The position numbers and the translations under genes are program-made. Under the pieces are notes generated by a model. It was not told the origin of the DNA. It searched no databases and saw nothing but the letters and a program-made list of their open reading frames with translations. A DNA stretch of 30,900 nt, taken from the IMG/VR virus record IMGVR_UViG_3300035698_004590, positions 1 to 30,900 of that record, one strand, 5' to 3'. This document shows, piece after piece, positions 3,945-28,535 of this stretch (position 1 is the first letter of the stretch; each line of letters starts with the position of its first letter). The stretch comes from a virus.

Positions 3945-3975
3945 AAAAAAGGCTGCCCAGGATCCCCGGACAGCC
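3945..3975 (-). terminator. Intrinsic terminator of the leftward cassette
   Basis: On the minus strand GGCTGTCCGGG and CCTGGGCAGCC pair as an 11-bp stem (two G-U) with a 3-base loop (+ coordinates 3951-3975), followed directly by six T (3950 to 3945). It stands 12 bases after the stop of the last leftward gene. The plus-strand orientation has no T-tract, so it ends leftward transcription only. Confidence 0.85.
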
Positions 3976-3987
3976 AGTCTCATAACC

Positions 3988-4200
3988 TCAACGTTGATTG
4001 TGGATTAGATTAAACACCTCCTTTCCTTTCAACTGCTTGTTTATTAATTGTAAAGATGCTATAGTCTTCACCTGATCTTTGACAATCCTTTTAAGCCTAT
4101 CAATCTCGTAGTTAAAAACCGAGATTGTGCCCTCCATGTCCTCGATTATCTTGTCCCTCTTCTTCATTTCTGTCTGCAATGTGTCAATTATCCGTTGCAT
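3988..4200 (-). CDS. Small coiled-coil protein, 70 aa
   Basis: Nearly the whole 70-residue protein is a predicted coiled coil: heptad-like Ile/Leu/Met spacing through MQRIIDTLQTEMKKRD, IIEDMEGTISVF and IDRLKRIVKDQV, with a short charged tail. The ATG at 4200 is chosen over the in-frame ATG at 4230: GAGGGGG stands 7 bases before it, and it follows the previous stop by one base. It is the last gene of the leftward cassette, just before the terminator. Function unknown; self-assembly or partner binding is likely. Confidence 0.65.
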   Translation of the reverse strand: MQRIIDTLQTEMKKRDKIIEDMEGTISVFNYEIDRLKRIVKDQVKTIASLQLINKQLKGKEVFNLIHNQR

Positions 4201-4201
4201 T

Positions 4202-4339
4202 TCACACCCCCTCGATCTGATAACCGGCATCTACAGCCGCTTTGATCGACCAACTGCTAACCTGCGTTGCAAGGTATTCAATACAATCAAAGAATGAACC
4301 TCTAAAAACCTCTTCCCCATCATGCGTCAAAATATACAT
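4202..4339 (-). CDS. Small hypothetical protein, 45 aa
   Basis: ATG at 4339 is preceded by GGGAGGG. The product starts MYILTHDGEEVFRGSFFDC and reads as two beta strands followed by a helix (IEYLATQVSSW), ending 1 base before the coiled-coil gene. The ribosome site, the tight spacing and the protein-like composition support it despite its length. No family can be named. Confidence 0.6.
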   Translation of the reverse strand: MYILTHDGEEVFRGSFFDCIEYLATQVSSWSIKAAVDAGYQIEGV

Positions 4340-4426
4340 TCCAAGCCCTCCCTCTTCTTAGTTGGCACCTACACCCCAACGAACCCCTGAAAGTTGATCT
4401 GAGAGGATCGTCGGGCGTTCAGGTGG

Positions 4427-4480
4427 TTATTCTGGTTCAAAATGCTCCCTTAACTCGTAAAATTCTTTTGTGTCTCTCAT
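4427..4480 (-). CDS. Possible 17-residue peptide
   Basis: ATG at 4480 follows a very good ribosome site (GGGAGGTAAGAGA) and encodes MRDTKEFYELREHFEPE. A strong ribosome site before so short a frame suggests either a real micro-gene or a leader peptide for the genes downstream. The only evidence is the site and the position in the cassette. Confidence 0.3.
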   Translation of the reverse strand: MRDTKEFYELREHFEPE

Positions 4481-4551
4481 TTCTCTTACCTCCCTCTTAT
4501 ATTTAACTCCTTGCGCTGCCCTCCGTCCTCCGCGGAAAGCAGGGTAAATGG

Positions 4552-5357: not shown

Positions 5358-5858
5358 ATGAGTAAGGACACAGCAAGACAAATCACAATCCCGCCTGATG
5401 ATCAACTACCCACTATACCCATACAACGACAAAAACGCATACCTATAGAGACACTGATCGAACTATCCCAAGTGAAGAAACTAAGTCACGCACAGATAAG
5501 TAAGATTATCGGATGCACACCCTCTAATGTAACACAGAGATTAAACAATGCAGGCATAACAACCCTAAGACAATACAAACAAAACAAGGATTTAGTATTT
5601 GAGAGTCTACAACAAAGGATAGTAACATCCTTAACGGATGGGGATATTAAAAAGGCTCCAATGGGGTCCAGGGTACTTGCTGTGGCCCAATTACAAGATA
5701 AGATTCACACACTTAGAGGGGAGGCCAGCGCTATCGTTAGTTATGACCCTATTGCATTGCAGGAGCGATATGCACAGCTTAAGGGTATGTTGTCTGATGC
5801 TATTGATGTAACGCCCGAGGATGCTCTACAAGGCGCTAAAGAGGGTAAGCTGGTATGA
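5358..5858 (+). CDS. Probable terminase small subunit (HTH DNA-binding protein)
   Basis: A 166-residue protein. Residues about 35-70 form a helix-turn-helix (LSHAQISKIIGCTPSNVTQRL) followed by a helical oligomerisation-like part and an acidic C-terminal segment. Size, HTH fold, position ahead of the large terminase and the repeats just upstream fit a small terminase that recognises the packaging site. The large subunit is not adjacent (7754), because six genes separate them, so a regulatory HTH protein remains possible. AGGA precedes the ATG. Confidence 0.55.
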   Translation: MSKDTARQITIPPDDQLPTIPIQRQKRIPIETLIELSQVKKLSHAQISKIIGCTPSNVTQRLNNAGITTLRQYKQNKDLVFESLQQRIVTSLTDGDIKKAPMGSRVLAVAQLQDKIHTLRGEASAIVSYDPIALQERYAQLKGMLSDAIDVTPEDALQGAKEGKLV

Positions 5859-10587: not shown

Positions 10588-12276
10588 ATGTTGACAACAA
10601 AAGAAATTGAGTCTTGCATCACGCGGTTTGGAGAGAAAAAGACAGATCGCAGTAACTTTGATTCTGTTTGGCAGGAAATACGAGATTATGAGTTGCCGAA
10701 CCGTCCGAGCTTTCTGAGTAAGGAAACTTCGGGTGCCAAGACAATGGAAAAGATATTTGATGGTACAGTGATTGATGCTATTAATGTCTGTAAGGCTGGA
10801 CTTAACGGGATGCTGACGAATGCGGCGTTGCCGTGGCATGGGATTGAAATGTCGGATAAGGAGCTTAACAAAGACCCTTCCATGCAGGATGCTTTAATCG
10901 AAGTAAATGGTGTGATGTCGCAGGAATATCATTCAAGTAATTTTTATACAAATATTGATGGGGTGTATGAAGAAATAATAGGATTTGGGCAATCAGGGTT
11001 ATTTATAGGACAGGGAAAGAAAACGGCTCTTAACTTTATGCCGATTCCATTAAGCCAGATATATACTGATGAAGATTCCGAGGGGGATGTAGATACCGTC
11101 TATAGAGCACGAAAGATGACAGCGCGGCAGGCGAGACAGGAATGGCCGGATAGTAAACTTACCCCTCAAATGATAAAAGCTCTTACTGATAGTGGAGATA
11201 AGGAAAACGAAGAATTTGATATTGTCCATATTGTGCGTCCAAGATCAGATAGGGAGATAGACAAGAAAGGGAATTATAAGCAGGACAAGGTAAACAAACC
11301 CATTCTTTCAGCTTATATCGCTATAGAAGAAAAGATAGTTCTTGATGAAGGCGGTTATGAAGAAATGCCATACGCTGTACCTAGACTATTTCTCAGTTCC
11401 GGGGAGGGGTATGGGAGAGGTTTGGGATGGAATGCACTACCTGATGTTAAGATGCTCAACACGATGGAAAAGACAGGTCTCAGGGCATGGCAGAAAGCTA
11501 CTGATCCGCCTTTGGTTCTTCCTGATGAGGGAATGTCGTTGCCGGTTAAAACCGGGCCAGGTGGTGTGACTTACAATTCAAATTGGGATAAACCCGGTGC
11601 GGATGCTAAACCTCTTTACGGTTCAGGTCAGTTCCAGATGATGCCTAACTTTGAGCAGAAATGCGAACAGAAACGTAACCAGATAAGGGAGTTTTTCTTT
11701 TATAAGCAATTCAGGACACAACAAGAAGGACAGCCCCGTACAGCACAGGAAATTATTCAGATTGCTAGCGAGAATCTTAAAATCTTGGGGCCGTTGCTTA
11801 ACAGGTTCATGGAGGAACTCTTAAAGCCTATAATTATACGTTCATTCTGGATACTTTTCAGGGCAGGGAAGTTTCCAAAATTGTCCAATGTTTTAGGGGT
11901 GGCAGATGAGTCTTTAGATTTTAAGATAGTTTATTTATCACCGATTGCGAAGGCTCAGAGACTTTACGAGGCACAGGAACTTCAGAACGCATTTACAATG
12001 CTTTTACCTGCCGCACAGATAAAGCCTGAAATGGTAGATGCTATAAGTGGTGATAAGTATTACGAGACAGTTGTTGAGTTGTATCCGGCGTTGAGAAAGG
12101 TATCAGAAAGTCCGTCAAGGGTGAGGGAGATGAGGGAAGAAAGGGCACGGGCAGAGGCAGAAGCCAAACTGGCACAGGATATTGGGGCTACTCTTGAGGG
12201 GGCAAAAATGGCCTCTGAAACTGACCCGAACGAGGGACTTTTGGGAGCATTAACCGGAACTATAGGAGCACCATGA
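10588..12276 (+). CDS. Portal protein (podovirus head-to-tail connector)
   Basis: A 562-residue protein matching the head-tail connector family (T7 gp8-like). The N-terminus carries the family pattern W.EI.DYELPNRPSF and IFDGTVIDA, the middle has FGQSGLFIG and PRLFLSSGEGYGRG, and a helical region around EFFFYKQFRTQQEG..RTAQEI leads to a charged Ala/Glu-rich C-terminal helix. Twelve copies would form the vertex ring through which DNA passes. Length is near the usual 510-560 for the family. Its stop overlaps the next start by 4 bases. Confidence 0.92.
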   Translation: MLTTKEIESCITRFGEKKTDRSNFDSVWQEIRDYELPNRPSFLSKETSGAKTMEKIFDGTVIDAINVCKAGLNGMLTNAALPWHGIEMSDKELNKDPSMQDALIEVNGVMSQEYHSSNFYTNIDGVYEEIIGFGQSGLFIGQGKKTALNFMPIPLSQIYTDEDSEGDVDTVYRARKMTARQARQEWPDSKLTPQMIKALTDSGDKENEEFDIVHIVRPRSDREIDKKGNYKQDKVNKPILSAYIAIEEKIVLDEGGYEEMPYAVPRLFLSSGEGYGRGLGWNALPDVKMLNTMEKTGLRAWQKATDPPLVLPDEGMSLPVKTGPGGVTYNSNWDKPGADAKPLYGSGQFQMMPNFEQKCEQKRNQIREFFFYKQFRTQQEGQPRTAQEIIQIASENLKILGPLLNRFMEELLKPIIIRSFWILFRAGKFPKLSNVLGVADESLDFKIVYLSPIAKAQRLYEAQELQNAFTMLLPAAQIKPEMVDAISGDKYYETVVELYPALRKVSESPSRVREMREERARAEAEAKLAQDIGATLEGAKMASETDPNEGLLGALTGTIGAP

Positions 12277-12500
12277 GAACCCGTCAAGTAATGTTACCAA
12301 TGAAAGACTTGGCGGCAATGGGAAGTGGGTTCTTTGTTGCACAGTATTTGAGAGGACATGGCATGAATCCAGAGGGAAATATTAAGAGATTCATTGATAA
12401 AGAAAAACAAATGATGATTTACACGGAGGTATTGGAGGATGAAAGACCCAAAGAGATTAGAGAGGTATCAAAGGTGGAAGGCGGTATTTGGAAGCCCTGA
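12273..12500 (+). CDS. Hypothetical protein, 75 aa
   Basis: Overlaps the portal stop by 4 bases (ATGA). A basic 75-residue protein with a short Gly/aromatic-rich helix (MGSGFFVAQYLRGHGM) and a charged C-terminal part. Its 3' part overlaps the next gene by 62 bases in another frame. Small genes in this place between portal and scaffold are common in podoviruses, but the role is unknown. Confidence 0.55.
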   Translation: MRTRQVMLPMKDLAAMGSGFFVAQYLRGHGMNPEGNIKRFIDKEKQMMIYTEVLEDERPKEIREVSKVEGGIWKP

Positions 12501-12702
12501 GGGGGCATCGGTTCTAAAAGATTTGAGGAAGATGGCAGGACAGGATTCTCAGTCGCTTGTTCAAAGTATAGTAGATGGTAAGATTGACCCGTTCTTTACA
12601 ATATTCAATGAGGGAAGAAGAAGTGTTTGGTTGGATATTGATAAGTGTTTAACCGAACCACCGGATTTACCGAAGGAGGATGTTGATGAAGGAGAAGGTT
12701 GA
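12439..12702 (+). CDS. Bbp19-like small phage protein, 87 aa
   Basis: The pattern RYQRWKAVFGSPEGASVLKD, then NEGRRSVWLDIDKCL, agrees with the Bbp19-like phage domain: a helix, FGTPEG-type turn, a second helix and an EGRR..v..I motif. Members are encoded between portal and scaffold genes in podoviruses. Their function is not established. GGAGG stands 9 bases before ATG 12439. It overlaps the previous gene by 62 bases and the next small gene by 17. Confidence 0.7.
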   Translation: MKDPKRLERYQRWKAVFGSPEGASVLKDLRKMAGQDSQSLVQSIVDGKIDPFFTIFNEGRRSVWLDIDKCLTEPPDLPKEDVDEGEG

Positions 12703-12853
12703 GAAGATACGGAATGATATAAAGACAGTGGTAACTAATCAGAGTGATGAGGTAACAATTTGTTTATTAAGAATAATAGAACTAATGGAGGAAAAAGATG
12801 GACGACCAGAGACAGACACCAAACGGAAGCCAGGAAGACCGAAGCGTAAGTGA
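12686..12853 (+). CDS. Small basic protein with AT-hook-like tail, 55 aa
   Basis: ATG at 12686 has a near-perfect ribosome site (AAGGAGG, 6-base spacing). The first 37 residues form a helix (VEKIRNDIKTVVTNQ...ICLLRIIELME). The end, KRKPGRPKRK, resembles an AT-hook (GRP flanked by basic residues), suggesting DNA or nucleic-acid contact. It overlaps the Bbp19-like gene by 17 bases and the scaffold gene by 56 bases in a different frame. The strong ribosome site is the main support. Confidence 0.6.
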   Translation: MKEKVEKIRNDIKTVVTNQSDEVTICLLRIIELMEEKDGRPETDTKRKPGRPKRK

Positions 12854-13607
12854 TTATCGAGAGGGATTTGCGCCTGAAATGAAAACGGCAATGGAGAAGT
12901 TTGATACTACGGAAAAATTAGCTTCCGGTTATATCGAACTTGAAAAAGATTCCAGTCGATTAAGGAACGAAAAGGGATTGATTATACCGGGTGAGAACGC
13001 GACACCTGAAGAGATGAGTGCTTATTATAATTCTCTTGGAAGGCCAGAAACAGCAGATGGATACGAACTTTCAGAACCGAAAGATATGCCCGATGGAATG
13101 GTATATGATGCTGAACGAACAAAGGCATTTGCTGAAATCGCACACAAAGAGGGTGTTACGGCTAAGCAACTTTCAGCACTTCATAAAGCATGGAATGATA
13201 ATGTCAGAGAGCAGATCGAAGCACAAAACACAGAGGTAACGAAGTTTGCTACGGAATCTACGGCTGAGATTAAGAAGGAATGGGGTGCTGATTTTGAGGC
13301 TAATCTCGCTCAGGCAGATACGGCGATTGATAAAATCTTTGGTCCTGATTTTAATAAGATGCTGAAAGATACCGGACTTGCAAATCATCCAGATGTTGTA
13401 AGGGGAATGTTTAAGGCTTCACAGGCGATAGGGGAACACGCGTTGACGATTGGGAAACCTAAGCATGAAGTTGGCGAGTTCACTATGGAAAAACTTATAA
13501 GTATGAAAATGGACCCAAGGTATTCCGATTCAGGGCAAAGAGATCCAGCTTACATAAAAGAAGTTGAAATGTATAATAGAAATTTGTCAGAAACAATGGG
13601 TGCGTAA
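12798..13607 (+). CDS. Scaffolding protein
   Basis: A 269-residue, acidic, mostly helical protein without Cys or Trp-rich core. It has the typical podovirus scaffold pattern: disordered polar N-terminus, LIIPGENATPEEMSAYYNSL, GRPETADGYEL..PKDMPDG, and a long helix from about 105 to 180. It would guide assembly of the capsid shell and then leave. Ribosome site GGAGG lies before ATG 12798. It precedes the major capsid gene by 139 bases, the usual order. Confidence 0.85.
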   Translation: MDDQRQTPNGSQEDRSVSDYREGFAPEMKTAMEKFDTTEKLASGYIELEKDSSRLRNEKGLIIPGENATPEEMSAYYNSLGRPETADGYELSEPKDMPDGMVYDAERTKAFAEIAHKEGVTAKQLSALHKAWNDNVREQIEAQNTEVTKFATESTAEIKKEWGADFEANLAQADTAIDKIFGPDFNKMLKDTGLANHPDVVRGMFKASQAIGEHALTIGKPKHEVGEFTMEKLISMKMDPRYSDSGQRDPAYIKEVEMYNRNLSETMGA

Positions 13608-13746: not shown

Positions 13747-14583
13747 ATGGCTAATACTATTGACCAGAGTTTCACAACCGATTATGACTCAGACGTTCAT
13801 GCGGCTTATCAGCAGTACGGAAGTAAGTTGCGTAACACTGTTCGGTTAAAGAAACTCAACCCAGGCCAAATCGCCAGATTCCAGCTTCTCGGGAAGGGTA
13901 CGGCGACCGACAAAGCCAGAAATGGTGATGTTGTTCCTATGAACCCCGTCCACTCCTATGAGGATGTAACCAGTACGGACAAGTATGCACCTGAATATGT
14001 CGATAATCTTGATGATATCAAGAACAACATCGATGAAAGGACGTTGTATGCTCGTGCCGGCGCAGGCGCATTGGGGCGTGAGATAGATCAACGAATCTTC
14101 ACGGTTCTTAACGCCGTAACTACCAATGCGATTGCAACTGGTAGCGAAGGTCTTTCCAAGTATAAACTTCTTCAGGCGATTCTGGCTCTTAATGAGAACG
14201 ATGTTCCTGATGATGGTGACAGGTGGGGAGTTCTTTCGGCGCAGGCATGGGAAGAGTTTATCAACATAGCTGAAGTTAAAAGCAGAGATTATATAACTGA
14301 TCTCGTGTGGACGAAGGGAACACAGGTGGTCAACTGGAGGGGAATCAAGTGGTTCTTCCATTCAGCACTACCTCTTTCCACGAATGACCGCTCCAACTTC
14401 ATTTTTCACCGCACCGCGGTTGGTCTTGCGGAAAACAAAGCGATAACGACCAGAATTGATTGGGTCCCGCAGAAAGCGGCATATCTTATCGATTCAATGA
14501 TGTCATGTGGCGCAGTTGTTATAGACGAACAGGGTATTGTTAAAATATCCTGTGACGAGTCTTCAACCGCGTTACTGGCTTAA
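13747..14583 (+). CDS. Major capsid protein
   Basis: At 278 residues it is of the T7 gp10A-like capsid type by position and pattern: N-terminal arm (MANTIDQSFTTDYDSDVHAA), then beta-rich segments (LNPGQIARFQLLGKGTA), a helical spine region around GREIDQRIFTVLNAVT, and a C-terminal beta part (AAYLIDSMMSCGAVVIDEQG). It forms the icosahedral shell with an HK97 fold (family knowledge). AAAGGAGAA precedes the ATG. The 139-base gap upstream holds no gene and no clear promoter. It is shorter than T7 gp10A (345). Confidence 0.88.
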   Translation: MANTIDQSFTTDYDSDVHAAYQQYGSKLRNTVRLKKLNPGQIARFQLLGKGTATDKARNGDVVPMNPVHSYEDVTSTDKYAPEYVDNLDDIKNNIDERTLYARAGAGALGREIDQRIFTVLNAVTTNAIATGSEGLSKYKLLQAILALNENDVPDDGDRWGVLSAQAWEEFINIAEVKSRDYITDLVWTKGTQVVNWRGIKWFFHSALPLSTNDRSNFIFHRTAVGLAENKAITTRIDWVPQKAAYLIDSMMSCGAVVIDEQGIVKISCDESSTALLA

Positions 14584-14595: not shown

Positions 14596-14844
14596 ATGGC
14601 TTTTGCAGCAGCAGGACTTAATTGTATAGCCGTAGGGCCAACTAAGCTCTATATCTATAACACAGGAGACTCGCTTACTTCGGCAACAGTTTTAACCAAT
14701 TTCAATACAACCAATTGCCCTGGTATGAGTGCGGGTGACATTATCCTATGCGCCCACGCAACGGCTACACTCTTGGACTCAATCAGGATAACGGCTATTG
14801 ATGCAACATCCTGTACTTTTGTCGAGCGTGCAGATCTAGGATAA
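14596..14844 (+). CDS. Probable small head decoration protein, 82 aa
   Basis: An 82-residue, beta-rich protein with N-terminal AFAAAGLNCIAVGPTKLYIY, a central AGDIILCAHA strand and a final TFVERADLG. Small proteins of this size directly after the capsid gene, with a similar start (AFAA.GL), are frequent in related phages and are thought to be head decoration or minor capsid components. The perfect ribosome site fits a high-copy virion protein. The role is inferred. Confidence 0.6.
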   Translation: MAFAAAGLNCIAVGPTKLYIYNTGDSLTSATVLTNFNTTNCPGMSAGDIILCAHATATLLDSIRITAIDATSCTFVERADLG

Positions 14845-14850
14845 ACTACG

Positions 14851-14875
14851 GGGTGGGGGGAAACCCTCACCCTTT
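14851..14875 (+). terminator. GNRA-capped stem-loop after the capsid genes
   Basis: GGGTGGGGG (14851-14859) pairs with CCCTCACCC (14864-14872) over 9 bp with one G-U, closed by a GAAA tetraloop, then TTT. It lies 7 bases after the decoration gene stop and just before the polymerase-like gene's ribosome site. The short T-tract suggests a weak terminator or an RNA-stabilising/processing hairpin, comparable in position to T7's terminator after gene 10. Confidence 0.65.
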
Positions 14876-14891
14876 AACCAAGGGAGGAATT

Positions 14892-16460
14892 ATGTTCGGA
14901 GAGGGATATGTTTTCTTGTTAGCGGCGATTATACCTTTTTTCTCGTGGCAACAAAGAGAAGAAGGTAGAAATCTTGTATCAATGGTAATAACTGGAGCAT
15001 TTTTAATAATGTGGTTAGCAACTGGTACAGTACCTATTGTGTGGGACATGACGACTATTTATGTGTTGTGTTTTGCATTGTGGATGATTGCTTCTGTTTT
15101 CTGGTCACATTCTCGTCAGAGCAGTCAGGATTTGTTCTTTATGCTTTGCGGGCTGGTTGTTTTTCTTTCCGCAAGAGCGATACCGTTTGAGATACTTCTT
15201 CCGATATTATTCATTCCTGGAGTAATCTTTGCCGGAGCATCGTTAATTTTCTACAAAAATCCACACCCCAAAAAGAAATATCCTATTTTCGGGAATTCTA
15301 ACCACATTGGAGCTTTTCTTTTAATTCCCTTATTCGCGGGAACGTGGCTCACGTTTAATGTATCTTGGTTTATAGCTCCTCTCGTTATCTTGATTGCCAC
15401 TGCAATAGGTTTAGTAAAATGTCGTGGTGCACAAGTAGCTGTTATCGTAGGACTTTTATATGTTGCATGTATAGAACAGATATATATGCTGGCAACTATT
15501 CCGATGATGTTAATATTTTTATATTTAATTTGCCGTTCAAGGGGCAAAACTTTCTATGCTTCCACTTCAAATAGAATATCGCTTTTTCTTGCAGCACTTT
15601 TACTTATAATAAAGTCCCCACTATCCGGCTATGGATTAAGAACATTCAGACGGGAATATCCTGCCATTATACCAAGTTTATTGAATAGCAAACTTTTAAA
15701 ACACTTTTATGCAAGAAGAACAACAGTTGAAAGTTCAACTTCTCATCGTATCCATAACGATCATCTTGAAATAATATTCGAGCTTGGAATTATTGGATAC
15801 ATTCTTTTTCTTGCAATATTCAGTTCGTTGTTGTGGACGGAGAACATCCTCCTCTCCGGGGCGGTTATCGCCTTTGCGGTGCATGGGTTTTTCTTCTTCC
15901 CTCTCAGAGAAGCCCACACCGCATTCCCATTTTGGGCATTAGCGGGTGGTCTTGCTAGTACATCTTCACCAATAATAACTTTCAATCCCATTATTGCCAT
16001 AGTTTTAGCCTTAATCGTAGGAAGAATAATGTATTGGGCATTAGTTAAGATACTTGGTGTTTCCTATTACGACCGGTCAGTAAAGATTGCAGTATCACCA
16101 AATGCTGAAACAGAAGTAGACAAGAAGGCACTTCTTCATAAGCAGACATGGATTAACTTGGCGGTTAAGTGTGACCCGTACAACAATTTATATCTTACAG
16201 TTCTTTACTATTACAATATCTTCACTAATCCCGAACAAGCCTTTCAATTCGCCTCGAGGTGCATAGAAAATTATGATGGTGGGAAGGTTCGGTGGGGTGT
16301 TTGCGATCAGTATGCAAGAGCATTATTAAGAGTAGGTGGATTAGGTGTGGCTGAAAGTGCAGTTAAATACGCTCTGCATATATGTCCTGATTTCAAACAA
16401 TCACAGGATTTGCTTGCACAGATTCAAGAAATGAAAAGTCAAATGGAGAAATCAAAATGA
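14892..16460 (+). CDS. O-antigen ligase/polymerase-like (Wzy/WaaL) membrane protein with helical C-terminal extension
   Basis: A 522-residue polytopic membrane protein (start at ATG 14892, ribosome site AAGGGAGGAATT). About 10-12 hydrophobic segments span residues 5-395. Family marks: GNSNHIGAFLL (134-144); the periplasmic-loop motif GYGLRTFRREYP (246-257); and HNDHLEIIFELGIIG (288-302), as in the O-antigen ligase/Wzy_C family; then PLREAHTAFPFW. Residues about 415-520 are soluble helical repeats resembling TPRs, found in some Wzy-like proteins. The family transfers or polymerises surface glycans at the periplasmic face. Between head and tail genes this looks like a cargo gene altering the host envelope. 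Confidence 0.85.
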   Translation: MFGEGYVFLLAAIIPFFSWQQREEGRNLVSMVITGAFLIMWLATGTVPIVWDMTTIYVLCFALWMIASVFWSHSRQSSQDLFFMLCGLVVFLSARAIPFEILLPILFIPGVIFAGASLIFYKNPHPKKKYPIFGNSNHIGAFLLIPLFAGTWLTFNVSWFIAPLVILIATAIGLVKCRGAQVAVIVGLLYVACIEQIYMLATIPMMLIFLYLICRSRGKTFYASTSNRISLFLAALLLIIKSPLSGYGLRTFRREYPAIIPSLLNSKLLKHFYARRTTVESSTSHRIHNDHLEIIFELGIIGYILFLAIFSSLLWTENILLSGAVIAFAVHGFFFFPLREAHTAFPFWALAGGLASTSSPIITFNPIIAIVLALIVGRIMYWALVKILGVSYYDRSVKIAVSPNAETEVDKKALLHKQTWINLAVKCDPYNNLYLTVLYYYNIFTNPEQAFQFASRCIENYDGGKVRWGVCDQYARALLRVGGLGVAESAVKYALHICPDFKQSQDLLAQIQEMKSQMEKSK

Positions 16461-17305
16461 AGATAAAAGTTTATTTTGAAAAGGCAGGTGCTTACGCTAC
16501 CGGACTTTCACCAACATTAAATATAAGGGATATATCAGACGGGTCACTTTCCGTTGAAGCCGGTGAAATGACGGAAGTTGGTGATGGGTTTTATTACTAT
16601 GACTTTACGGCATACGATTATACGGTAACTTATTCAATACTATGTGATGGAACCTCACAATTAGCTACTGACGATGACCGCTATGTTCCGGGTAATTTTA
16701 CTTATGGTGAGGTAACTTCGTCAGTTGCCGGCGGGGCAAGCATTGTTGGGTTATGTAATCAAGCACTCTTCATATTGGGGCAGAAAAGCATTATTTCGTT
16801 GACTGAAGATACTGAGGCGGCAAGATTATGTAACGGTAGATATGCTTATAATAGAGATGCGGCTATCCGTTCATATCCGTGGAATTGTGCAATGGCAAGG
16901 ACGTCTCTGGCGCAGAGTGGTACTACACCATCATGGAAATACGATTACAAATATGCACTACCAACCAACCCATACTGTTTGAGGGTTATGTCAATGGAAG
17001 AACAGGAAGAAAGCGGGTATAACTGGAAGATAGAGGGACGTTTTCTTTTAACCGATGCGACTACTTGTTATATTTTGTATTTGGCAAGACTCACAGATGT
17101 GAATGAAATGGATTTATTGATGAGGGAAGCTATCGCCGCAAGATTAGCCGCAGATATTTGTTATGCACTTACGGGTAGTTCTACTCAACAGGATAAAATG
17201 TGGGAACTATACGAACGAAAAATGAGAATAGCCAAATCAGTTGACGCACAGGAAGGAACACCGGAATCTTTAACTACTGATACGTTTCTTAATGCGAGAC
17301 ATTAA
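16457..17305 (+). CDS. Tail tubular protein A-like (T7 gp11-type) with extra N-terminal domain
   Basis: Residues about 95-282 match the gp11 gatekeeper family: IVGLCNQALFILGQKSI, RYAYNRDAAIRSYPWNCA, and MREAIAARLAADICYALTG followed by a charged helix. The first 85 residues are an additional beta domain (VYFEKAGAYATGLSPTLNI, then EVGDGFYYYDF), so the protein (282) is longer than T7 gp11 (196). It would form the dodecameric ring between portal and nozzle. It overlaps the upstream glycan-polymerase-like gene by 4 bases (ATGA), so the cargo gene and tail gene are translationally linked. Confidence 0.8.
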   Translation: MKIKVYFEKAGAYATGLSPTLNIRDISDGSLSVEAGEMTEVGDGFYYYDFTAYDYTVTYSILCDGTSQLATDDDRYVPGNFTYGEVTSSVAGGASIVGLCNQALFILGQKSIISLTEDTEAARLCNGRYAYNRDAAIRSYPWNCAMARTSLAQSGTTPSWKYDYKYALPTNPYCLRVMSMEEQEESGYNWKIEGRFLLTDATTCYILYLARLTDVNEMDLLMREAIAARLAADICYALTGSSTQQDKMWELYERKMRIAKSVDAQEGTPESLTTDTFLNARH

Positions 17306-17317
17306 AGGTGTAAGTAT

Positions 17318-19057
17318 ATGAAAACAAGTCAGATTTTGACCAACTTCACGGCGGGAATTTTCTCACCAAGACTTTATGGCAGGGTGGATTTATCAAAGTA
17401 TTTTAATGCCTGCCGTACACTTCAGAACATGATTGTGTATCCTCATGGTGGTGCGTCAAGACGATTCGGTACAGTCTATGTCGCTGATGCTAAAGCAAGT
17501 GCCACTATATCGCGTTTAATACCGTTTCAGTTTAATGTCGAACAGTCATATATACTTGAATTTGGACAAAATTATATCAGATTCTTCAAAGATAATGGTC
17601 AAATAGTAAGTGGTGTTACTCCGGTAGAGGTAGCGTCAACATATACAACCGACTTATTGTTCGATATTGGTTTCGCTCAGAATGCCGACACAATGCGGTT
17701 GGTTAATAAATCTGTCGCGCCAAAAATACTTACACGAACAAGTCATGTAGATTGGACGCTTGCAACATCAACATTTACAGCACAGCCAGCGGACTGGTCA
17801 GCGGCAAGTGGGTATCCTGGCCATGTTGCATTATACGAACAGAGGTCGCTTTATGGTGGCACTTCCGACAAGCCACAAACAATATGGTTTAGCGTAACTG
17901 GAAACCTCGACGATATGACCACCGGTACAGCGGCAGACGATAGCTTTAACGTAACCCTTGATGACGATAATGTTCTTTTATGGATCAATGTTGGAAGGTT
18001 TCTTCACGCAGGCACGGGGGCTTCAGAGTGGGTTATATCTTCAGGGGCAACCGATGAAGCAATGTCACCAACTGCACGAAAAGCCAGAAGGGTGTCACGG
18101 TATGGCAGTGCGGCTATTCCCGGTAAAAGAGCAGGGAACGCTATTTTGTTTGTTCAGCGGGCCGGGAAGAAGATACGGGAACTGATTTATGATTATGTTC
18201 AGGACAACTTTGGTGACCCACCAGAATTAACAATATTCGCAGAACACATTACATCAACTGGTATTAAGTCGTATGCGTTTCAGAATGAACCTGATTCAAT
18301 CCTATGGTGTGTCTTAAACGATGGTACGATTGCAGCATTTACTTACAACAAAGCACAGGAAATAACAGCATGGCACTTGCATACCACAGGAAGCTCTACG
18401 AGTACCGGATTGTTTGAAGATGTTGAAGTCATTTCAGTTTCAGATCATGACCAGGTATGGTTTATAGTAAGACGATATATAGACGGGGAATGGAAACGAT
18501 ACATAGAATATATGGCTCCTGATTTTGGGGATACTAAGGCGGATTGCTGGTTTGTTGATTCGGGATTAAAGTATGATGGGACTGGTGCGAGTTCAGTTTC
18601 AGGATTAGACCACCTTGAGGGAGTAACAGTTTCAATACTTGCAGATGGGGCACCAGAACCAAATCAGGTTGTAACTTCCGGTAAGATCACACGTACAACA
18701 ACGTCATCCGTAGTAATCGTCGGGATTCCTTATACTTCGATTCTTGAACCAATGGATTTGGAAACCAAAGAAGGAAGCGGTTCTTCACAGGGTAAAAGGA
18801 AAAAGATACACCATATACTTGTAAGGTTCTACAAGACTCTTGGAGCTAATGTTGGAAGTTCTGAAGGTACTATCGATACGATACCTTTCAGAAAGCCAGG
18901 GGACCCTATGGGTACATCACCACCATTATTCACAGGAGATAAAAATGTACCGTTCCCTGGAGGGTGGGACAGGCACGGATATATAAGGATAATACAGAAA
19001 CAGCCATTACCATTGACGGTACTGGCAATAGAACCTTTAGTAAATGTCGGAGATTGA
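17318..19057 (+). CDS. Tail tubular protein B-like nozzle protein (T7 gp12-type)
   Basis: A 579-residue, beta-rich protein with the family opening: NFTAGIFSPRLYGRVDLSKY, then LQNMIVYPHGGASRRFGTVY, followed by IPFQFNVEQSYILEFG. Later blocks (SPTARKARRVSRYG; ...DDQVW-type beta-propeller-like strands; HHILVRFYKT) agree with the nozzle/tail-tube family. It is shorter than T7 gp12 (794). It forms the distal tube where fibres attach. AAAGGTG precedes the ATG. Confidence 0.85.
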   Translation: MKTSQILTNFTAGIFSPRLYGRVDLSKYFNACRTLQNMIVYPHGGASRRFGTVYVADAKASATISRLIPFQFNVEQSYILEFGQNYIRFFKDNGQIVSGVTPVEVASTYTTDLLFDIGFAQNADTMRLVNKSVAPKILTRTSHVDWTLATSTFTAQPADWSAASGYPGHVALYEQRSLYGGTSDKPQTIWFSVTGNLDDMTTGTAADDSFNVTLDDDNVLLWINVGRFLHAGTGASEWVISSGATDEAMSPTARKARRVSRYGSAAIPGKRAGNAILFVQRAGKKIRELIYDYVQDNFGDPPELTIFAEHITSTGIKSYAFQNEPDSILWCVLNDGTIAAFTYNKAQEITAWHLHTTGSSTSTGLFEDVEVISVSDHDQVWFIVRRYIDGEWKRYIEYMAPDFGDTKADCWFVDSGLKYDGTGASSVSGLDHLEGVTVSILADGAPEPNQVVTSGKITRTTTSSVVIVGIPYTSILEPMDLETKEGSGSSQGKRKKIHHILVRFYKTLGANVGSSEGTIDTIPFRKPGDPMGTSPPLFTGDKNVPFPGGWDRHGYIRIIQKQPLPLTVLAIEPLVNVGD

Positions 19058-27601: not shown

Positions 27602-27826
27602 ATGTCTAAAATGTTAATGGCAGATGCAGTAGTAGTAGGGCCTGAGATTTTGACTTTTGGTGGGATAGTTATTACAGGACTTTGTAAATGGCGATCTCAA
27701 GGTACTAACGGGTATATGTCAAAAGCATTATGCGATGAACGGTCGAGTGCTATTCAGCAAGATATAGCTGAAATCAAATTGGTGCAGCATGAGATATTTA
27801 AAGAGTTGAGGGAGCAAAGGAAGTGA
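27602..27826 (+). CDS. Possible holin or lysis accessory, 74 aa
   Basis: A hydrophobic stretch near residues 6-28 (MADAVVVGPEILTFGGIVIT) is followed by a Cys-containing charged coiled coil (ALCDERSSAIQQDIAEIKLV). This one-helix-plus-coiled-coil layout is shared by small phage membrane proteins encoded next to endolysins. Its stop overlaps the endopeptidase start, which supports a lysis role. ATG 27611 has the better placed AGGA and may be the true start. The membrane segment is only moderately hydrophobic, so holin is a suggestion. Confidence 0.5.
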   Translation: MSKMLMADAVVVGPEILTFGGIVITGLCKWRSQGTNGYMSKALCDERSSAIQQDIAEIKLVQHEIFKELREQRK

Positions 27827-28170
27827 ACAACTTCATCCTCTTTGAGTTTGCCTGCAAAGATAAATGCGGCAAGTGCGACATGGATAAGGGGTTTTTAAAA
27901 AGGATTGACCTCGCCCGTGATTACTCAAACGTACCTTATATTATAAACTCAGGTTGTCGTTGCGAGGCTCATAACCTTGCAGTAGGGTCAACAAGCCTGA
28001 ACCACATAGAAGGTAAGGCAGCGGATATAAAATTCACTTCTAATTGGACACTTATGCGAATTGTAACGGGTCTAGTTTTGGCAGGGTTTAGGAGAATAGG
28101 GATTAACCGTAAGTATAAATTCGTCCATGTTGATAATAGGGATAAACCAGAAAGTCTTTGGGGGTACTGA
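27823..28170 (+). CDS. Peptidase M15 family endolysin (L-Ala-D-Glu or D-Ala type endopeptidase)
   Basis: A compact 115-residue M15 domain. Pattern SGCRCEAHNLAVG, then NHIEGKAADI, gives zinc ligands H61 and D68, and FVHVD provides the third ligand H102. RIGI and the final W.Y are also family marks. It cleaves peptide cross-links of the peptidoglycan at the end of infection. It has no signal peptide, so a holin is needed for export. GTG start 27823 overlaps the holin candidate by 4 bases and has AAAGGAA upstream. Four additional Cys near the N-terminus are unusual. Confidence 0.9.
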   Translation: MNNFILFEFACKDKCGKCDMDKGFLKRIDLARDYSNVPYIINSGCRCEAHNLAVGSTSLNHIEGKAADIKFTSNWTLMRIVTGLVLAGFRRIGINRKYKFVHVDNRDKPESLWGY

Positions 28171-28535
28171 TGAATATCAAAGAAGAACTGATAGATAACT
28201 ACAAGTATTATAGACTTCTGGCACCGTATAGATTCAAGAGCGTTGTTCTGGGGTGCACGATCACCGTCCCCAAAGGGTTTGTATATGACAAGGAAAGTGT
28301 CCCTATTATAACCGGAACATCAGTCAGAGGTGGACTTATCCATGATTATCTTTGTCGGATAGATTCTGTTCCAGTTGTCACGAAAGAGCAAGCCGCCAAT
28401 GTTTACCTTGAAGTTATGACCAGAAGGAAGAATGCGTGGTGGCGACGATACATAAAGTATTGGGCTGTCAGAGTAGCCTTCGGGTATTTTCACAAGTTCA
28501 AAGTCCTCGCCACCTATGAGGAGATAACCAGTTAA
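28170..28535 (+). CDS. DUF1353 family protein
   Basis: A 121-residue protein with DUF1353 marks: VPKGFVYDKESVP, GGLIHDYLCR, then a helix with ANVYLEVM, and WAVRVAFGYF. The family is common in the late region of tailed phages, often beside lysis genes. Its function is unknown. ATG 28170 shares a base with the endolysin stop and has GGGGGT upstream. It is preferred over the in-frame TTG at 28158. It is the last rightward gene. Confidence 0.8.
   Translation: MNIKEELIDNYKYYRLLAPYRFKSVVLGCTITVPKGFVYDKESVPIITGTSVRGGLIHDYLCRIDSVPVVTKEQAANVYLEVMTRRKNAWWRRYIKYWAVRVAFGYFHKFKVLATYEEITS

Follow-up and report, generated by a model that had tools for sequence, protein, structure and literature searches.

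The wzy-like gene described here appears to encode a member of a branch of the WaaL/Wzy (Wzy_C) superfamily that is specific to phages and is made late, together with the virion proteins. From our point of view, its product is best read as a glycan transferase that faces the cytosol, is guided by its TPR domain and most likely has a virion protein as its acceptor, a reading to which we give a probability of about 0.38. The gene lies in IMG/VR record IMGVR_UViG_3300035698_004590, of which positions 1 to 30,900 were analysed; this whole stretch of 30,900 nucleotides is called the window in the following.

The wzy-like gene and its neighbourhood

Judged by the sequences of its portal, major capsid, tail A/B and internal virion proteins, the window phage groups with the T7-like/HTVC010P-like podoviruses; in a portal comparison, its closest annotated isolates are pelagiphages at ~34% identity. 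In the two records checked, HTVC010P and MW202510, a Wzy_C protein is absent. The features around the gene are:

10588-12276 (+): portal/head-tail connector (Head-tail_con, family match)
12798-13607 (+): scaffold/assembly protein (phrog_3742; weak T7 capsid-assembly match)
13747-14583 (+): major capsid protein (Phage_capsid_2, phrog_3437)
14596-14844 (+): putative capsid decoration protein, 82 aa, candidate acceptor; function assigned by position only, homologs in the same place
14850-14873 (+): GC-rich hairpin without U-tract, just 5' of the wzy-like ribosome binding site
14882-14887 (+): Shine-Dalgarno-like GGGAGG 5' of the wzy-like ORF, fixing the ATG at 14892
14892-16460 (+): Wzy_C (PF04932) WaaL-fold membrane protein with C-terminal TPR domain, 522 aa (Pfam, homologs, AF2, VIA-align)
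16457-17305 (+): gp11-like tail tubular protein A (phrog_394), start codon within the wzy-like stop
17318-19057 (+): gp12-like tail tubular protein B (phrog_376)

As the first-pass annotation had described, the gene encodes 522 residues and sits between the decoration ORF, for which Pfam and phrog gave no family match, and the gp11-like tail gene, with which it shares four bases (ATGA). The same overlap occurs in the related contigs L003, L002, L005 and L014; in L017 it is longer and the tail gene starts with GTG. The gp11-like protein of the window further carries ~94 extra N-terminal residues that the L017 copy does not have. Homologs of the wzy-like protein align from the ATG at 14892, and four relatives at 83, 68, 63 and 46% identity share this start, so that the GTG at 14853 reported by the ORF finder is unlikely in view of both the ribosome binding site and the homolog alignment. 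Between the window and L003, its nearest relative, dN/dS for the gene is 0.11/1.25 (about 0.09), similar to the adjoining capsid and tail genes. The ORF is hence a real, conserved gene under purifying selection, which rules out a chance reading frame.

The hairpin at 14850-14873 recurs at the same place, with lineage-specific sequence, in L002, L003, L005, L014, L017 and L029 (z-scores of -0.9 to -3.7). It has no T-run and was not found by the terminator scan, which speaks against a standard terminator, and a comparison with Rfam gave no match; perhaps it marks a point of processing or attenuation that sets the capsid genes apart from the tail genes, comparable to the T7 capsid/tail boundary. 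Elsewhere in the window, an ORF at 5358-5858 shows a weak sigma-70 region 4 match just under the cut-off, possibly a late regulator, and an endolysin-like ORF (phrog_894; 27823-28170) overlaps a DUF1353/tail-chaperone-like ORF (region 27823-28535).

Fold, active site and TPR domain

In the Pfam scan, the wzy-like protein matched Wzy_C (PF04932) with an E-value of 6.5e-8 and 32.9 bits, above the cut-off of 31.7. An AF2 model built from a 12-sequence alignment reached a pLDDT of 83.6 and a pTM of 0.84 over the 522 residues (four close sequences gave a pLDDT of 39). A Foldseek search of the model against PDB and BFVD returned nothing at E < 0.001 and had TPR proteins in its top rows. WaaL 7TPG, absent from these rows, surfaced only after re-ranking with VIA-align, where it was the best match and stood well above the TPR rows (Z 21.3, 333 residues, model residues 1-360, 16% identity over the structural alignment). 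The parts of the protein map to the gene as follows:

14892-16061 (+): membrane domain, residues 1-390, with 12 WaaL-type TM helices and an extra TM13 (366-390) (AF2, VIA-align)
15423-15425 (+): codon of R178 (CRGA motif), equivalent to R215 of E. coli WaaL (alignment with QTRAT of E. coli WaaL)
15573-15575 (+): codon of R228, equivalent to R288 of E. coli WaaL (GARLAMY; alignment)
15753-15755 (+): codon of H288 (HND...E...E.G..G), the essential WaaL/Wzy_C His (alignment)
16062-16457 (+): C-terminal TPR-like domain, residues 391-522 (AF2, VIA-align)

R228 and H288 are invariant in 12/12 aligned sequences, down to 20% identity, and the motif around them is also kept, while the R178 position is Lys in some homologs. 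Going by the model, the protein is almost certainly a Wzy_C/WaaL-fold enzyme, and the retention of fold and residues predicts that it is very probably active. With the WaaL fold and the Arg-Arg-His residues both preserved in its membrane domain, the protein most likely takes a lipid-carried glycan and passes it on to an acceptor. One could also imagine a virion or assembly membrane protein without activity that serves as scaffold or anchor, which would suit the position in the head module; with His, second Arg and surrounding motif invariant in the 12 sequences, we consider this highly improbable.

The C-terminal part, residues 384-520, matches many TPR chains (VIA-align Z about 15, rmsd 2-3) and shows a weak sequence match to designed TPRs. 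It is preceded by an extra helix (366-397) that follows the WaaL part, is hydrophobic up to ~390 and, by helix count, places the TPR domain on the H288 side. Both the Wzy/WaaL fold and the TPR-like C-terminus had been suggested by the first-pass annotation, and the structure prediction it had called for gave the WaaL fold and the TPR match.

In its 12-TM fold, Arg-Arg-His residues and HN(D/E) motif the phage protein is thus like WaaL (7TPG from Cupriavidus metallidurans; E. coli WaaL), from which it differs in the extra TM13 and TPR domain, the predicted opposite orientation and the location of its gene in a head module.

Predicted membrane orientation

According to PMC4815439 and the WaaL maps cited there, the His loop of WaaL and Wzy is periplasmic and the N-terminus cytoplasmic. 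For the phage proteins, the orientation was predicted from the way in which Lys and Arg of the short loops divide between the His side of the membrane and the other one, with the parity anchored on the conserved Arg and His. Eleven phage proteins were compared with 10 bacterial ligases, of which nine came from PLSDB and the tenth was WaaL of E. coli K-12; in the segmentation of two phage proteins and one control, a helix had to be placed manually. D3 Wzy-beta, for which in-silico topology had been judged unsatisfactory before PhoA/LacZ mapping placed it as N-in with 10 TMS and a periplasmic His (PMC4815439), was left out of the controls, as the helix count of the simple segmentation misfits the published periplasmic His.

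The Lys plus Arg counts, His side versus opposite side, were 99:14 for the phage proteins and 56:149 for the bacterial ligases. The share on the opposite side ranged from 0.00 to 0.25 in the phages and from 0.57 to 0.79 in the bacteria, without overlap, and the corresponding densities were 0.048 (opposite) and 0.183 (His side) compared to 0.275 and 0.098. The difference between the two sets gave a Mann-Whitney p of 1.2e-4, a value that overstates independence in view of the kinship of the 11 phage proteins. A segmentation made independently from the AF2 helices gave the same charge picture. The first loop after the His-adjacent TM helix separates the two sets by itself, being basic in the controls (YKKR, RNRN, PMKCR, REKKY) and neutral or acidic in nearly all phage proteins (WTEN, TYDP, SSID). 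Phage N-termini further show almost no Lys or Arg ahead of TM1.

As Lys and Arg lie on the catalytic side in 11/11 phage proteins, the positive-inside rule predicts that both the active site and the TPR domain are cytoplasmic. This rule is statistical, and cationic loops close to an active site can be catalytic; on the charge pattern, we regard a cytosolic active site, inverted compared to WaaL/Wzy, as probable. In the literature searched, mostly non-subscription papers, no report of a cytosol-facing or inverted WaaL/Wzy_C homolog was found.

The Wzy_C match, the WaaL fold and the catalytic residues would equally suit a normally oriented, periplasmic O-antigen ligase or polymerase that is made late, alters the host surface glycans and blocks the binding of other phages or of released progeny. 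Phage Wzy proteins that change the host polysaccharide are known, as in the case of D3 Wzy-beta (PMC4815439) and of an A. baumannii prophage Wzy (PMC9241936). We nevertheless think this rather unlikely for the wzy-like protein: the charge distribution is reversed relative to the bacterial ligases in all 11 phage proteins, the TPR domain would end up in the periplasm, late expression would presumably leave little time for remodelling a whole envelope, and the gene belongs to the head module in each of four head types, not to a conversion module as in D3 or VarioGold. A change of host surface glycans was what the first-pass annotation had proposed, and as this needs a periplasmic active site, the predicted orientation goes against it; the fold, the TPR domain, the unusual location among head and tail genes, the late-gene context and the conservation are supported. 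By profile score, WaaL fold and Arg/Arg/His residues the protein is a member of the Wzy_C superfamily. A periplasmic catalytic side is a defining feature of O-antigen ligases and polymerases; as it is predicted to be absent in 11/11 phage proteins, we do not count the wzy-like protein among these enzymes.

Relatives and their genomic place

In IMG/VR, every window-type contig covering the locus (L002, L003, L004, L005/L011, L014, L017 and L029; L006 ends inside the gene) has the wzy-like gene between the decoration gene and tail A, and the window protein is 30-83% identical to those of its podovirus relatives with a Phage_capsid_2 capsid. A random single insertion, against which the first-pass annotation had suggested a check on conservation, is ruled out by the retention of the gene in all relatives that cover the locus.

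Further head types were found by wider scans with growing alignments. In L026-L028 (34% identity) and L034 (31%), which have a lambda-type portal, an S49 protease and a Mu gpT capsid, the wzy-like gene directly follows the decoration gene. L039 (33%) is a P22-coat phage with the order coat, 83-aa ORF, wzy-like gene and gp4-like adaptor, and its wzy-like protein has no TPR domain, from which it follows that this domain is not essential everywhere. L037 (a 101-kb contig) and L038 are large phages with Phage_capsid_4, in which the gene lies between capsid and head-completion genes (20-26% identity). Overall, the gene occurs in the head modules of four head types with different major capsid families, and among the viral contigs found, no family member was seen outside a head module. 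The profile search gave exactly one Wzy_C match per record in 11/11 records tested; the homologs scored 31.7-63.9 bits, with L039 below the cut-off at 23.4.

At the sensitivity used, no relative was detected by tblastn in INPHARED (four family members as queries) or among the PLSDB plasmids (one family member), nor in GTDB by two alignment-based scans, which rely on short peptide patterns that bacterial relatives could escape.

D3 Wzy-beta and VarioGold VG_p25 are likewise Wzy_C proteins encoded by phages, but their genes belong to conversion-type clusters close to integrase/attP and are read from the opposite strand. The D3 gene wzy-beta is grouped with iap, an acetylase and attP/int, whereas the wzy-like gene sits in the head module, and the D3 and VarioGold sequences in INPHARED gave no tblastn match to the family. 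A serotype-conversion module of the D3 type is ruled out by location, as all relatives have the gene among their head genes and no integrase is seen in the window. In agreement with the first-pass annotation, no tyrosine integrase was found in the window, a linear 30.9-kb record that is probably incomplete, nor in G001 (35 kb), a relative carrying the wzy-like gene. The L028 contig has an integrase at its far end, not beside the wzy-like gene, which makes this phage type probably temperate, and in L036, a window-type relative, a serine recombinase (346-966) lies upstream of the packaging genes.

Some relatives show further features. L014 has the putative decoration gene in two tandem copies (3951-4490) 5' of the wzy-like gene. 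The decoration-like proteins of L027 (7394-7981), L034 (6273-6803) and L039 (2182-2433) have in common a stretch rich in S/T, after which comes a YGFxTxAQA motif, and L034, which has the wzy-like gene, also carries a GT2-type glycosyltransferase gene in its tail region (12094-13431). The S/T content of the decoration ORFs (0.17-0.23) is not telling. From one phage type to another, the decoration ORFs show no obvious homology, and a common acceptor is consequently not implied.

Phage head modules accept passenger genes, and the locus could therefore be a convenient expression slot only, for a cytosol-facing transferase acting on host proteins or lipid A-core, e.g., in defence or counter-defence. 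The topology prediction and the TPR domain would fit such an enzyme as well. We consider it improbable, given that no own promoter was seen near the gene and that phages whose capsid families are unrelated have it in this same slot.

Proposed role

In the reading that we prefer, the cytoplasmic active site could take undecaprenyl-linked glycans from the inner leaflet prior to flipping, and the TPR domain would present a protein acceptor to it. The most likely acceptor would be the virion protein encoded next door (decoration or capsid), resulting in sugar-coated particles. A virion protein is the likeliest candidate because unrelated phages keep the gene linked to their head genes, often right after the decoration gene; given a cytosolic active site, we rate the chances of such an acceptor as about even. 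Capsid sugars have been proposed for mycobacteriophages encoding glycosyltransferases (PMC11256854).

An inverted enzyme might instead drain or misroute lipid-linked precursors at the inner leaflet (O-unit, lipid II or lipid A-core before flipping) and in this way stop envelope synthesis or aid lysis. The predicted cytosolic active site and the late-gene position are compatible with this. The endolysin is, however, located elsewhere (27823-28170), and both the fused TPR domain and the constant link to head genes point to a protein partner, so that precursor draining appears even a little less probable than an action on host targets.

With regard to known protein glycosylation systems, our preferred reading of a virion-protein transferase would bring the wzy-like protein close to the PglL-type protein O-oligosaccharyltransferases, with which it shares the Wzy_C domain and, as proposed here, the transfer of a lipid-linked glycan to protein. 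In contrast to PglL, which itself works in the periplasm, it gave no match to PglL_A (PF15864) or Wzy_C_2 (PF11846) in Pfam scans up to E 0.1. The joining of a TPR region to a sugar transferase is further reminiscent of OGT and SPINDLY, where the TPR serves protein substrates; these are, however, soluble GT-B enzymes that use nucleotide sugars and have an unrelated catalytic fold.

We tentatively suggest, with slightly more reserve than for the preferred reading itself, a new class of phage enzyme, namely an inverted WaaL-fold oligosaccharyltransferase that uses a TPR substrate arm to transfer host lipid-linked sugars onto capsid or decoration proteins, and that has independently lodged beside the decoration gene in the head modules of unrelated tailed phages. 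The phage Wzy_C enzymes described so far modify the host surface and are encoded in lysogenic conversion clusters, and a Wzy_C protein in a phage head module was not reported in the literature searched, mostly non-subscription papers. The wzy-like branch, on the other hand, occurs within the head modules of phages with at least four head types, has no matches in isolate phage genomes and is apparently inverted. If true, a periplasmic enzyme class would have been turned round for cytoplasmic work, which would provide phages with a simple source of virion glycans and represent a testable example of inverted topology within a large enzyme family. Cytosolic glycan transfer to protein would further be attractive for glycoengineering.
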